From assembly GCA_013360825.1 (NCBI GenBank), contig JABWAY010000003.1:1-38018 (forward strand): a stretch of 38,018 nucleotides of DNA, given 5' to 3'. The notes under the pieces were generated by a model. That model was not told where the DNA came from and made no database searches. It worked only from the letters and a program-made list of their open reading frames with translations. Of the stretch, positions 30,073 through 35,606 are shown piece after piece. The translations under genes were made by a program, and so were the position numbers. Each line of letters starts with the position of its first letter. Position 1 is the first letter of the stretch. Source of the stretch: Candidatus Brocadiia bacterium. GTDB taxonomy: Bacteria > Planctomycetota > MHYJ01 > WSZJ01.

Positions 30073-31347
30073 GTGGCCGTCCTGACTCGAGTCCTGCTCG
30101 CCGTGCTGGCCCTCTCCGCCGGTGTCGCCGCGGACGACCTGGCGGAGCTGCGGAAGCGCGAGGATGCGCTCCGCGCCGAGGAGGCGGGGCGGCGGCTGCC
30201 GCTCGCGGAGCACTGTGAGCGGTGCAAGATGTGGAAGGAAGCGGACGCGGAGTACCGCCGGCTGGTGGTGCTCGCCCCCGACAACGCGCAGGTCGCGGAC
30301 AGGGCGGCGAAGGCCGCCGAGAAAGCCAAGGTGGCGCAGAGCCGGCCCGCGAAGCAGGACGAGGCGTCGTATCGGCAGGGGGCGATGACCGTCTCACGGG
30401 AGATGGCGAAGAAGTGGTGGGAGCTGGCGCAGTGGGCCCTGGAGCGCGGGCTGAGGGTCGAGGCCGAAAAGACCGCGGAAAATGCGGAGGGGCTGGACGA
30501 GGTCGTCGGTGCGCCCTCCCCGCTGGCGAAGAAATTCTGGGAATCGATCTATCCTCTCGGCGATGAGCGGCGTCTGTCGATCGACGCGCTGAACGGGTGG
30601 CGAAAGCGGTGCGGGCTGAAGCCCGTCGAGTTCTCCGCGAGGCTCTCGGCGGGGGCGCAGCGGCATTCGGAGTACCTGCTGCGAAACGAGGGGCACCCGT
30701 CCACCGACGGACTGGGCGCTCACGACGAAGATCCCTCCCTCCCCGGGTACACCCCGGAGGGGGCGCACGCCGGCAAGTCGAGCGACATCGGGCAGGAACC
30801 GCCCGTCGCCGCGATGCTCGGAATGCTCGGGACCTACTATCACCGCATCCCGCTTCTCCACCCCGACCTCCAGCGGGTCGGGATCGGATGGGCGCCGCGC
30901 CCGGACGGACAGGGCGGGTGGTGCACCATCGACTGCATGTCCGGGCACGGGCCGCGGGTGGACTCCCCGCGCATCGTGGTGTACCCGCCGGACGGCTCCC
31001 GGGATGTGCAGCGCGCGTTCGACAACGAACTCCCGGACCCGATTCCGCCAGGGGAAGACCACGACTGCGGGACCTGCGTGAGCCTGAGCGTGTTCGACAA
31101 GGGAAAGCTCGAGAACTGCGAGATGACCGTGAAGGTGAACGGGGCGGCGGTGGAGGGGTACCTGTCCCATCCCGGGGCGCCCGCGCGGAAGGACCACGGC
31201 CAGGGGCGCAACATCGTCTTCATTCCGAAGGACCCGCTCCCGGCCGGGGCGAAGGTGGAGGTGAGCGCGAAGGGGTCGCTGGACGGCAAGCCGATCGCGA
31301 AGTCGTGGTCGTTCACGACCGGGCAGGACCTGTCTCATCCGCGGTGA
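30073..31347 (+). CDS. secreted CAP/SCP-like protein, tandem paralog 1 (GTG start proposed)
   Basis: Signal peptide [78 protein letters not shown]. Confidence 0.75.
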
Positions 31348-31390
31348 GACGGACACCGGCCCGCCCACGTCACTTTTCAGGGAGCCCGCC

Positions 31391-32635
31391 ATGCGTCGAT
31401 CCGTCGCCCTCGCCCTCGTGATCCTGCTCCCGCTCCTGGCCGCCGCGGAGGACGCGGCCGCGGAGTATCAGAAGCGCGCGAAGAAGCTGGAGCAGGAGGA
31501 GGGAACCGGCGCGGCGAATCTCGCCCGGCACTGCGAGTCGACGAAGATGTGGAAGGAGGCGGTCGTCGAACTGACCCGCGCGGCGGAGGTCTTTCCCGAC
31601 AGCCGGGATCTTCAGGAGCGCCTCGAGAAGGCCCAGCAGCGCGCCGACACCGTCGTGAGCCGGCCCACGGAAACGGAGAAAGCCCAGTACCAGGCCGGGC
31701 AGGCGGCGCTCCGGAGCGCGCTCGCGAAAAAGTGGAAAGACCTTGCGGCCTGGGCGAAAGGTCGCGGACTCGAGGACGAGTCGTTCGAGGCTGCGGCGCG
31801 CGCGGCGGACTTCGGGGAAACGAAGGCGGCGTCGAGCGACCCGAAGCAGCAGGCGGTGGACTGGCTCAACCTGGTGCGCCGCAAGCTGAAGGTCGGCGCC
31901 GTGACCCTCAGTCCGAAACTGAGCGCCGACGCCCAGAAGCACTGCGACTACCTCGTCCTGAACAAGATCCCCTCCAGCGCGAGCGGCGACCAGGTCCATG
32001 GGGAGGACCCCAACCTCCCCGGCTACACGCCGGAGGGGGCGAGGTCCGGCATGAGCAGCGACATCGGGCGCATGGAGCCGCTCGGCTCGATGAAGGGGAT
32101 GATCGGGACCTTCTACCACCGGATCCCGCTTCTCCACCCCGACCTGAAGGAGGTGGGGATCGGGTTCGCGAAGAGCGGGGACGCGGGGCGATGGGGGGGC
32201 GGGTGGTGCGCGATCGACTATTCCGGCGTCGGGGACCGCCAGGAGAAGGCCCCGCGCGTCGTCGCCTATCCGTCGCCGGGGCAGAAGGGGGTTCCGCGCG
32301 GATTTGACGGGGAGAATCCGGATCCGCGGCCGGCGGGGACGGATGTGGTCGGGTATCCGGTCACGCTGACCTGGTTCGACGGGGAGGAGGTCCGGGGTGT
32401 GGAGATGGAGGTGCGCGCCGCGGGCGTCCTGGTCCCCGGGTACGTCTCCTCGCAGGAGAAACCGGCGCGCGCCGATTTCCCGAACGACAACACGGCCTGT
32501 TTCATGGCGGAGGGGCCCCTGGCCGCGAGCACGCTTCACAAGGTCGTCGTCCGGGCGACGGTGAAGGGGGAGCCGTTCGAGATGACCTGGGAGTTCACGA
32601 CGGGGACCAGGATGTCGGAGGAGGGGTGGCGCTGA
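31391..32635 (+). CDS. secreted CAP/SCP-like protein, tandem paralog 2
   Basis: Signal peptide; [58 protein letters not shown]. Confidence 0.78.
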   Translation: MRRSVALALVILLPLLAAAEDAAAEYQKRAKKLEQEEGTGAANLARHCESTKMWKEAVVELTRAAEVFPDSRDLQERLEKAQQRADTVVSRPTETEKAQYQAGQAALRSALAKKWKDLAAWAKGRGLEDESFEAAARAADFGETKAASSDPKQQAVDWLNLVRRKLKVGAVTLSPKLSADAQKHCDYLVLNKIPSSASGDQVHGEDPNLPGYTPEGARSGMSSDIGRMEPLGSMKGMIGTFYHRIPLLHPDLKEVGIGFAKSGDAGRWGGGWCAIDYSGVGDRQEKAPRVVAYPSPGQKGVPRGFDGENPDPRPAGTDVVGYPVTLTWFDGEEVRGVEMEVRAAGVLVPGYVSSQEKPARADFPNDNTACFMAEGPLAASTLHKVVVRATVKGEPFEMTWEFTTGTRMSEEGWR

Positions 32636-32672: not shown

Positions 32673-34445
32673 TCAGGCGCCGCTGAGCCTCCGTGCGGCG
32701 AGGACGCTGGCGCCGAGCGCGTGCCGCCGCTGGAGGCGGTCGCACTCCTCGAACCCGGTGGTGTGGGCGGAATAGCGCAGCAGGGCGATCCAGTACCCCT
32801 CCATCGCGGCCACACCGGCGCAGAGTTCCTTCCCCCAGCTCCGGACCTCGCAGACGGCCGCGTGCGACTTGGCGATCGCCGGGTCCGCGGCCAGGGCGGC
32901 GGGAAGGGCGGGGGGCGCGGCCTCGAGCGATTCCTGGCGCATGAGGAGGTCCTCCCACTGCAGAGCCCGCCGGAGCGCGTCCTCGTCGGGGACGGGATGC
33001 AGGATGAACTTGAGATCGTTCTCCAGCTTGGCGACGTCCTTGAGCGCATGCGCCGGCCCGGTGTGAAAGTAGTCGATGAGCCAGGCGTTCCCCGCGTCGT
33101 CGAGCAGGACGTTCGCAAGGTTCAGGTCGCCGTGCACCCAGGCGACAGGGGCGTCGACCGGGTCCGCCGCAAGGAGCCGCGGCAGCCCGGCGTAGAACGT
33201 CTCGAGCGGCGCGATGTCGATGTCCCCGGCGAGCGCCCGCCCCCGTTCCAGCGTGTTCGCCGCATACTCCGGTCGATATCCGTAGTGCCCGTAGAGCTGC
33301 AGCCGGTCCCGGACCGGGGACTGCGACAGCCGGCAGAGGACGTTCGACCAGACCCTTCTCAGCAGCGCCGCGGCGTCCTCCGGAGATCGGGCGACCGCGA
33401 TCCGCCGCTGCAAGGCCGCGACGGGGGAGTGGTGCATGGACGCGAACATGTACTGGATCGCGCCGCGGGTCACGAGGTCGGCGTGGTCGACCATCGTCGG
33501 TGCGCTGAGCCCGAGCACGTTCTCGACGCGCTCGACCGCGGCCCGCTCCTTCGCGATCTTCGCCCTCTCGTCGGTCTTCACGACAAACGGGACCTCGATG
33601 CGTCCATCCTGATCGATCGACCGCGTCCGCCAGACGCGGGCGCCGCTGAATCCGCCGGCGAGCGGGGCGAGCTCGACGGAGCGGCAGTTGCGGAACAGGT
33701 GGCGGACGAGGTCTGCATCCTCGCCGTCGAGGGGAGATCCGGAGAGCGCGACGCCGTAGGCCGGGGCGGGGCGGGTCTCCGCGCGTTCCCCGATCCCGAG
33801 CGCCGCGAGGAACTCCGGGATGCCGTCCACCACGCGCACGGCGAGGTTCTGGGCGAGGAGGTCGAGGGCCTGAAAGTGCCGGACCCGGGAGCGGCTGGCG
33901 GCGAGCGCGCTGCAGACGACGATGTGCCGGAATCCAAGCCGGGTCAGGAGGTCGTAGGCCAGGTACTGAACCTTGACGTCGGTCCAGACCCCGATGATCC
34001 CCGCGACCACCTCGGCGGGCGGGACGGGGCCCAGCAGCTCCCGGATCTGCGCTTCCAGGTCCGTCGACACGAAGTCGTTCAGCGTGGTCGAGTCCACGAT
34101 CCGGGTCGGCACGCCGTCGTCGTGGAGGTCGTCGAGCGGGGGGACGAACGCGGCGCCCGCGGTCCCGCGGAGGCAGTGGGGGCCGAAGTGGGCAAGGTGG
34201 GCCTGCTGCGCGGGGTCTCCGGCATCGTGCCAGTCCCGGATGTGGACGACCGCGTGCCCGGGGCCGGCCCCCGCGTAGAAGGCGCGCAGGAATCGTCCCA
34301 GCGGACCGGTGGCAGGGTCGTCTCCGACGAGCCGGCGCGCCTCGGCGTGCCCGATGTGCAGCTGGTTCGGGACGCGCGCACCGGCGGAGACCGGCGCCAC
34401 GAAGTCGTTCTGGAGGCATTGCGTGAACAGGAGGATCCGCGGCAT
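32673..34445 (-). CDS. fusion of a catalytically degenerate isochorismatase-like domain and an APH-type kinase-like domain
   Basis: N-terminal LFTQCLQNDFV and GVWTDVKVQYLAYDLLTRLGFRHIVV (isochorismatase fold, Cys position is Lys). C-terminal G-loop LAGGFSGARV, FVVKTD, HGDLNLANVLLD, LIDYFHTG. Confidence 0.75.
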   Translation of the reverse strand: MPRILLFTQCLQNDFVAPVSAGARVPNQLHIGHAEARRLVGDDPATGPLGRFLRAFYAGAGPGHAVVHIRDWHDAGDPAQQAHLAHFGPHCLRGTAGAAFVPPLDDLHDDGVPTRIVDSTTLNDFVSTDLEAQIRELLGPVPPAEVVAGIIGVWTDVKVQYLAYDLLTRLGFRHIVVCSALAASRSRVRHFQALDLLAQNLAVRVVDGIPEFLAALGIGERAETRPAPAYGVALSGSPLDGEDADLVRHLFRNCRSVELAPLAGGFSGARVWRTRSIDQDGRIEVPFVVKTDERAKIAKERAAVERVENVLGLSAPTMVDHADLVTRGAIQYMFASMHHSPVAALQRRIAVARSPEDAAALLRRVWSNVLCRLSQSPVRDRLQLYGHYGYRPEYAANTLERGRALAGDIDIAPLETFYAGLPRLLAADPVDAPVAWVHGDLNLANVLLDDAGNAWLIDYFHTGPAHALKDVAKLENDLKFILHPVPDEDALRRALQWEDLLMRQESLEAAPPALPAALAADPAIAKSHAAVCEVRSWGKELCAGVAAMEGYWIALLRYSAHTTGFEECDRLQRRHALGASVLAARRLSGA

Positions 34446-34508: not shown

Positions 34509-35606
34509 ATGCCATCGCGCAGATTGCCCTGGTCGGCGGAACCGAACGCCCTGACGGTCCTGCGCGGGGAAAAGCTCCTCGCGGGGACGCCGATCCTGGA
34601 CCTGACGGTGACCAACCCCACCCGGGCCGGGATCGCCTATCCGGAATCCGAGCTTCTCCGGGCGATCGCCGACCCCGCCCTGCTGCGCTACGAACCGACC
34701 CCGCGCGGACCCGAGGCGGCCCGCGCCGCCGTCGGCGCCCTCTACGGCGTCGGCGCGGAGCGCGTCCTGCTCACGGCCAGCACGAGCGAAGCGTACGCCC
34801 TCCTGTTCAAGATGCTCTGCGACCCGGGGGACGTCGTGCTCGTCCCGCAGCCCGGATACCCGCTCTTCGACCACCTGGCGGCGCTGGAAGGAGTCTCGGT
34901 CCGGCCCTGGCAGCTCGACCTCGACGCGGGGTGGGCCTCCCGGATCCCCCGGTCCGCGGGGGGCGCGAAGGCGCTGGTCGCCGTCAGCCCGAACAACCCC
35001 ACCGGGTCCTGCCTGGAACCCGCCGCGCTCGACGACGTCGCGCGCCTCGGGATCCCCCTGATCTCCGACGAGGTCTTCTCCGACTACGCCTTCGCGCCGC
35101 TTCCCCCTCCGGCGCGGAGCCGGACGGACATCCCCGTCTTCACGCTGGGGGGGCTCTCCAAGTCCGCGGGGCTGCCGCAGCTGAAGCTGGGCTGGATCGT
35201 GGCCACCGGCCCGGGCGCCCCGCAGGCGCTCGACCGCCTCGCCGCCGCCGCGGACGCCTACCTCTCCCCGTCCGCCCCCGTGCTCTGCGCCGCCCCCCGG
35301 CTGCTGGAACTTGCGCCGCGGATCCGCGAGGGGATCCGGGCCCGCCTCCAGGCGAACCTCGCCGTCCTGCGCGCAGTCCTTCCGGAGAGTCTCCGCGCCC
35401 CCCTCGGCGGCTGGAGCGCCGTGCTGGAACTCCCGGCGGAACGCACCGACGAAGAGTGGGCGCTCGCCCTTCTCAGGACCGACGGCGTCCTCGTGCATCC
35501 GGGGTACTTCTACGGTTTTCCGCGCGAGGCGTTCCTGGTCGTCAGCCTGCTGACCCCGGAGGAGACGTTCCGCGCGGGGTGCGGCCGGATCGCATCACGC
35601 CTTTGA
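34509..35606 (+). CDS. class I/II PLP-dependent aminotransferase
   Basis: LTVTNPTRAGI, VAVSPNNPTGS, LISDEVFSDYAF, PLP-lysine region LGGLSKSAGLPQLKLGW. Confidence 0.9.
   Translation: MPSRRLPWSAEPNALTVLRGEKLLAGTPILDLTVTNPTRAGIAYPESELLRAIADPALLRYEPTPRGPEAARAAVGALYGVGAERVLLTASTSEAYALLFKMLCDPGDVVLVPQPGYPLFDHLAALEGVSVRPWQLDLDAGWASRIPRSAGGAKALVAVSPNNPTGSCLEPAALDDVARLGIPLISDEVFSDYAFAPLPPPARSRTDIPVFTLGGLSKSAGLPQLKLGWIVATGPGAPQALDRLAAAADAYLSPSAPVLCAAPRLLELAPRIREGIRARLQANLAVLRAVLPESLRAPLGGWSAVLELPAERTDEEWALALLRTDGVLVHPGYFYGFPREAFLVVSLLTPEETFRAGCGRIASRL

Follow-up and report, generated by a model that had tools for sequence, protein, structure and literature searches.

What does a hydrolase-like domain do when its catalytic residues have been exchanged and a kinase has been attached to it? 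The question is raised by one gene of the window, the whole stretch of 38,018 nucleotides analysed here, whose product had been read in the initial annotation as a dead isochorismatase-type hydrolase placed in front of an intact small-molecule or protein kinase.

Domain layout, fold and kinase motifs

The open reading frame begins with an ATG at 34445 and ends with a stop at 32673 on the minus strand, giving a product (P0001) of 590 amino acids, and the start codon is common to four orthologues of the same genus which are 67-68% identical. The gene and its two domains are laid out as follows.

32673..34445, minus strand: whole gene, 590 amino acids, nicotinamidase-fold domain and TCAD9/APH-type kinase (ORF, Pfam, orthologues)
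33792..34445, minus strand: N-terminal nicotinamidase-fold domain, residues 1-218 (alignment of relatives, structure model, PDB match)
32676..33728, minus strand: C-terminal TCAD9/APH-type kinase domain, residues about 240-590 (Pfam, full-length model, motif conservation)

The Pfam matches were to Isochorismatase (PF00857, E=2.4e-10, residues 50-202), TCAD9 (PF19974, E=1.1e-41, 143.8 bits and thus above the curated cut-off of 40) and APH (PF01636, E=2.4e-9). An AF2 model of residues 1-218 alone (pLDDT 84.7, pTM 0.87) found its best PDB matches exclusively among nicotinamidases and their relatives, with PncA of B. subtilis at the top (6a8l, E=3.7e-11, TM 0.81 by target length), which confirmed the isochorismatase/nicotinamidase fold of this half. 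Modelled at full length, with less confidence (pLDDT 67.5), the protein matched APH kinases and the nicotinamidase of S. pneumoniae. Pfam and the structure models together bear out the proposed fusion of an isochorismatase fold with a kinase.

In the C-terminal half the APH-type motif set is complete, comprising the Gly-rich loop, the Lys, the catalytic HGD, the Asn and the metal Asp. GGFSG (264-268), K290, E300/E305, HGD (438-440), N445 and D458 were found to be invariant in the ten full fusions compared, so the kinase set called intact from this one protein is intact throughout. Three of these elements are located as given below, each invariant in ten fusions.

33576..33578, minus strand: Lys290 (FVVK), nucleotide-binding Lys
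33111..33134, minus strand: HGDLNLAN, residues 438-445, with catalytic Asp440 and metal-binding Asn445
33072..33074, minus strand: Asp458 (LIDYF), second metal-binding Asp

The intact motifs predict phosphotransferase activity for this half. A resistance kinase was considered and rejected, as the APH(3') resistance model gave 23.7 bits, far under its cut-off of 205. TCAD9 was detected at E<=1e-12 in 10 of the 246 planctomycete genomes searched, in nine of them inside this nicotinamidase-fold fusion; in the tenth (L124, G145:C359, 4177-6519) TCAD9 is followed by a TPR-S sensor domain, which is another architecture.

Active-site residues of the N-terminal domain

In PncA of M. tuberculosis the catalytic triad consists of Asp8 at the end of strand 1, Lys96 at the end of strand 3 and Cys138 at the start of helix 3, and the metal is held by Asp49, His51, His57 and His71 (PMC3025910). 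The corresponding and family-specific residues of the window protein are listed here.

34416..34418, minus strand: Cys10, position of the catalytic Asp (PncA Asp8), motif TQCLQNDF vs VDVQNDF; invariant in the family
34356..34358, minus strand: His30 of the family-specific motif PNxLHIG; invariant
34227..34235, minus strand: D71-W-H73, equivalents of the PncA metal ligands Asp49/His51; D71 and H73 invariant
34176..34178, minus strand: His90 of FGxHC, equivalent of the PncA metal ligand His71; invariant
34089..34091, minus strand: Ser119, position of the catalytic Lys (PncA Lys96); invariant in the fusions, Ala in two free-standing relatives
33972..33974, minus strand: Lys158, position of the catalytic Cys (PncA Cys138), from alignments to solved enzymes; invariant
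33876..33878, minus strand: His190; invariant in the family

When the protein was aligned with solved enzymes, Lys158 fell at the catalytic Cys and Ser119 at the catalytic Lys, while Cys10 was assigned to the catalytic Asp by ungapped comparison of TQCLQNDF with VDVQNDF. In the model of the N-terminal half Cys10 comes right after strand 4-9, Ser119 closes strand 114-119 and Lys158 opens helix 158-170. The Asp-Lys-Cys triad of the isochorismatase superfamily is absent, with C10, S119 and K158 in its place, and the metal site of PncA has equivalents for three of its four ligands (D71, H73 and H90), all of them invariant. In an alignment of 14 relatives, which included free-standing ones of 30-38% identity, C10, H30, D71, H73, H90, C91, K158 and H190 were found to be invariant. 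Since the triad is replaced the classical hydrolase is gone; a specific pocket is nonetheless under strong constraint. Judged from the aligned sequences, the exchange of Asp for Cys and of Cys for Lys, fixed across the subfamily in two phyla and in free-standing as well as fused proteins, is an unusual rebuilding of an active site.

Within the genus the N-terminal domain is 76% identical as against 62-65% for the kinase, and outside the genus about 46% as against about 38%, while a dN/dS of about 0.2 indicates strong purifying selection. Taken together, these values are evidence against a decaying or purely structural domain, and the invariant pocket along with the higher conservation of this half fits a rebuilt pocket better than a dead hydrolase. 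The initial annotation was right that the catalytic Cys had become Lys and that the upstream catalytic Lys had been lost. It had also looked to homologues with an intact Cys elsewhere as a point against its reading, and missed Cys10, which is invariant at the old Asp site; with a Cys at another active-site position, and the N-terminal domain as the best-conserved part of the protein, the hydrolase cannot be called dead on this footing.

Relatives, neighbourhoods and the MoxR/vWA-like partners

Five genomes from the genus of the window carry full fusions, as do four more planctomycetes (G110, G020, G244 and G081) and two Burkholderiales (G294 and G809), and in G131 the fusion is a split gene. 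The architecture, together with the Cys-to-Lys change, is hence conserved beyond this contig and in a second phylum besides Planctomycetota; the subfamily is uncommon, being present in 14 of 392 planctomycete genomes, and the related genomes are draft MAGs or assemblies. Both Burkholderiales reading frames are frameshifted, at different positions, and were analysed in pieces, unmended; the frameshifts could reflect decay or mistakes in assembly. One remote planctomycete hit (L104, E=4e-17), which carries VDM...TNICV, turned out to belong to the ordinary isochorismatase-family proteins and was left out. The 770-residue protein of G020 (L022) runs on into a dual-specificity phosphatase with HCxAGxGRSG (PF22785/PF05706/PF00782, the CDKN3/Tc-R-P/DSP families). 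The same phosphatase domain occurs in G110, where the contig end cuts it, in G131 and in both Burkholderiales, and is absent from the window protein, G244 and G081. Relatives of the triple-domain form were sought in phages, with no match, and in plasmids, with only weak kinase or phosphatase matches; no relatives of the N-terminal domain were found in viral contigs. The window protein matched nothing in plasmids and no PADLOC family, so it was set down neither as a mobile or phage gene nor as a known defence protein.

Free-standing N-terminal domains occur in G056, G171, G065 and G282. Those of G056 cluster with nicotinate phosphoribosyltransferase, NrtR, NAD synthase, a classical nicotinamidase, Hsp70 and ThiF, and the arrangement in G171 is similar, a link to NAD that comprises two genomes of one genus. 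In both loci (L026, 4377-16286, and L027, 2320-15051) the free-standing C10/K158 proteins adjoin the Hsp70 gene amid the NAD-salvage genes, including the classical nicotinamidase, and ThiF belongs to L026. Beside the split fusion of G131 (L025, G131:C136, 7452-11603) lie genes for a YukD/ubiquitin-like protein, an E1-like ThiF, a JAB protease and an FHA-domain protein, a group that resembles a bacterial ubiquitin-like conjugation system. In G110 (L021, G110:C207, 1775-2871) mtnA, encoding S-methyl-5-thioribose-1-phosphate isomerase, ends 13 bp upstream of the fusion gene. In one same-genus genome (L002, 4873-8064) the fusion gene is followed by a gene for a large protein which by eye resembles a nuclease with a NACHT/STAND-type NTPase.

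In the window the flanks (25.7-38.0 kb) encode an acyl-CoA synthetase, a DUF255 protein, CAP proteins, an aminotransferase, methyltransferases and a TPR protein, and no MoxR or vWA gene lies beside the fusion there. Downstream of it (30100-32635, plus strand) two adjoining genes for CAP-domain proteins of the cysteine-rich secretory protein family stand by the gene for the DUF255 thioredoxin-like protein, and this group recurs in same-genus loci. The aminotransferase had been put forward as part of one system with the fusion.

34509..35606, plus strand: divergent class I/II aminotransferase, a neighbour at genus level

It adjoins the gene in four of five same-genus loci (window, L003, L004 and L005) and in no other lineage examined, so that the proposed pairing was given up and the aminotransferase probably lies outside the system.

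A compact operon was found in the two Burkholderiales, in which the fusion comes first and is succeeded by a MoxR-type AAA+ ATPase (AAA_3/AAA_lid_2), a protein X of about 340 amino acids, a 620-residue protein and a protein Y of about 210 amino acids. The 620-residue protein had no Pfam match and carries an invariant HEIGHH motif together with D(C/S)SGSMPNP; we read it, from these motifs, as zincin-like and vWA/MIDAS-like. X and Y had no significant Pfam match, hence none of VMAP, iSTAND, FtsH or a beta-propeller was recognised as third component. This physical linkage is confined to two related genomes of one order. Pairwise BLAST of the Burkholderiales operon against the first planctomycete neighbourhoods gave nothing, and the unlinked copies surfaced only by whole-genome search, which detected the vWA-like protein in the window's own genome (G000:C157, E=1e-121) and in G115, G146, G222 and G081, identity being about 40%, and weakly in G131, all away from the fusion. 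Its MoxR was not seen in the window's genome, an 87.8%-complete assembly that has the vWA-like gene on a contig of 4.8 kb. G280 and G131 do carry MoxR, and where contigs permit MoxR, X or Y adjoin the planctomycete vWA-like gene. In G081 and G222 (L120 and L121) unrelated genes stand between X and the vWA-like gene, namely a Schlafen-AlbA/ATPase and ParA in G081 and a WD40 propeller protein in G222, an arrangement of the variable-cargo type that is common in conflict systems.

Seven of the ten fusion-bearing planctomycete genomes have at least one operon partner, unlinked, and the three from which partners are missing (G244, G020 and G110) are all incomplete MAGs. The vWA-like protein occurs in 6 of 216 planctomycete genomes, the sole one without the fusion being G141, and Fisher tests of the co-occurrence gave p=5e-7 by genus, 1e-4 by same genome and 0.04 with the whole class taken as one event. 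The association of the fusion with the MoxR partners is good and phylogenetically thin. TCAD9 is listed as associated with MoxR-vWA ternary systems (PMC10910872), and Kaur et al. 2020, who described these systems, noted rare active APH kinases among the effectors (PMC7159879). The early impression of a likeness to ternary systems, offered as no more than that, therefore points the right way, with the TCAD9 domain and the Burkholderiales operon behind it.

A candidate sensor-kinase and its comparison with known systems

We tentatively favour, at a probability of about 40%, a reading in which an N-terminal domain that senses a ligand or state controls the attached kinase, which acts on a MoxR-centred machine and is opposed by the phosphatase in the longer form. 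This reading starts from the observed folds, residues, conservation, fusion partners, operon and co-occurrence, and infers the ligand, the sensing, the kinase activity, the target and the biological role. The protein would then serve a MoxR-linked system as its sensor-kinase. The N-terminal domain, with the nicotinamidase fold and metal-type residues kept and the D-K-C triad exchanged for a conserved C-S-K set, probably binds a small ligand without the old amidase reaction, a nicotinamide- or NAD-related compound being the leading guess, and its ligand-bound state would control the APH-type kinase. The dual-specificity phosphatase fused in relatives would undo the phosphorylation. The likely target would be the MoxR AAA+/X/HEIGHH-vWA/Y machine, whose genes adjoin the fusion in Burkholderiales and lie apart from it in genomes of this planctomycete genus. 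Because relatives add a phosphatase and adjoin a chaperone/protease machine, the protein looks like a phospho-switch and not like a dead leftover enzyme.

The invariance of C10, K158, H30, H190 and D71/H73/H90 despite divergence to 30%, along with the strong purifying selection, would also suit an N-terminal domain that is still an enzyme, with Cys10 and Lys158 newly paired as catalytic or redox-sensitive residues above the kept metal site and the product or state feeding the kinase. A binding site would however predict such invariance just as well, Ser119 varies in free-standing relatives and the literature searched holds no precedent, and we regard this relocated chemistry as possible, though clearly less probable than sensing. 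APH kinases usually act on small molecules, a habit which speaks for a bifunctional metabolic enzyme of nucleotide or sugar metabolite salvage or repair, its N-terminal domain performing one step, its kinase phosphorylating a small molecule and its phosphatase removing the phosphate. The closely spaced mtnA, the NAD-salvage genes by the free-standing versions and the aminotransferase in the window's genus agree with this. Yet the metabolic neighbours change with every lineage, the triad for amidase chemistry is lost, TCAD9 is named after ternary complexes and the MoxR operon is non-metabolic, which leaves such an enzyme rather unlikely.

A catalytically dead scaffold that merely positions the kinase, with no ligand sensing, would account for the replacement of all three classical catalytic residues; it fits least and we hold it to be improbable, as conservation peaks at the pocket residues and is higher in the N-terminal domain than in the kinase. 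Returning to the favoured sensor-kinase, its boldest form would be a new signalling class, in which a nicotinamidase-fold site permuted from Asp to Cys and from Cys to Lys works as a Cys-Lys switch, catalytic or of a redox/ligand kind, and drives a kinase and an opposing phosphatase that control a MoxR/zincin-vWA machine; we consider this version doubtful. The family supplies the TCAD9 kinase of MoxR-vWA systems with a candidate target, a candidate sensor domain and a phosphatase that would oppose it, and the switching of these systems thereby becomes testable, the rebuilt active site leaving clear residues for testing.

The literature searched, which leaves out most subscription papers, contained no isochorismatase in fusion with such a kinase or in MoxR systems, and isochorismatase is nowhere mentioned by Kaur et al. 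2020 (PMC7159879). Compared with nicotinamidase/pyrazinamidase PncA (PF00857 superfamily), the N-terminal half has a like fold and the metal-type D-x-H...H, while Asp, Lys and Cys have become Cys, Ser and Lys, a kinase is fused and LHIG and H190 are family-specific. With the APH/aminoglycoside and small-molecule kinases (PF01636) the protein has the P-loop, Lys, HGDxxxxN and Asp motifs in common, whereas its low resistance-model score and the other domains fused to it set it apart from APH resistance kinases. The Burkholderiales operon resembles the MoxR-vWA ternary conflict systems (PMC7159879) in its MoxR AAA+ ATPase, vWA-like protein and extra components, and differs from them in that the vWA-like partner has an N-terminal HEIGHH and no Pfam match, and in that no described third-component type was recognised. 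To TCAD9 (PF19974), the kinase-like domain tied to vWA-MoxR-VMAP ternary systems, the likeness lies in the kinase half; no VMAP was recognised here, and what distinguishes the family from other TCAD9 proteins is the N-terminal nicotinamidase fold of the window protein and the C-terminal phosphatase of its relatives.
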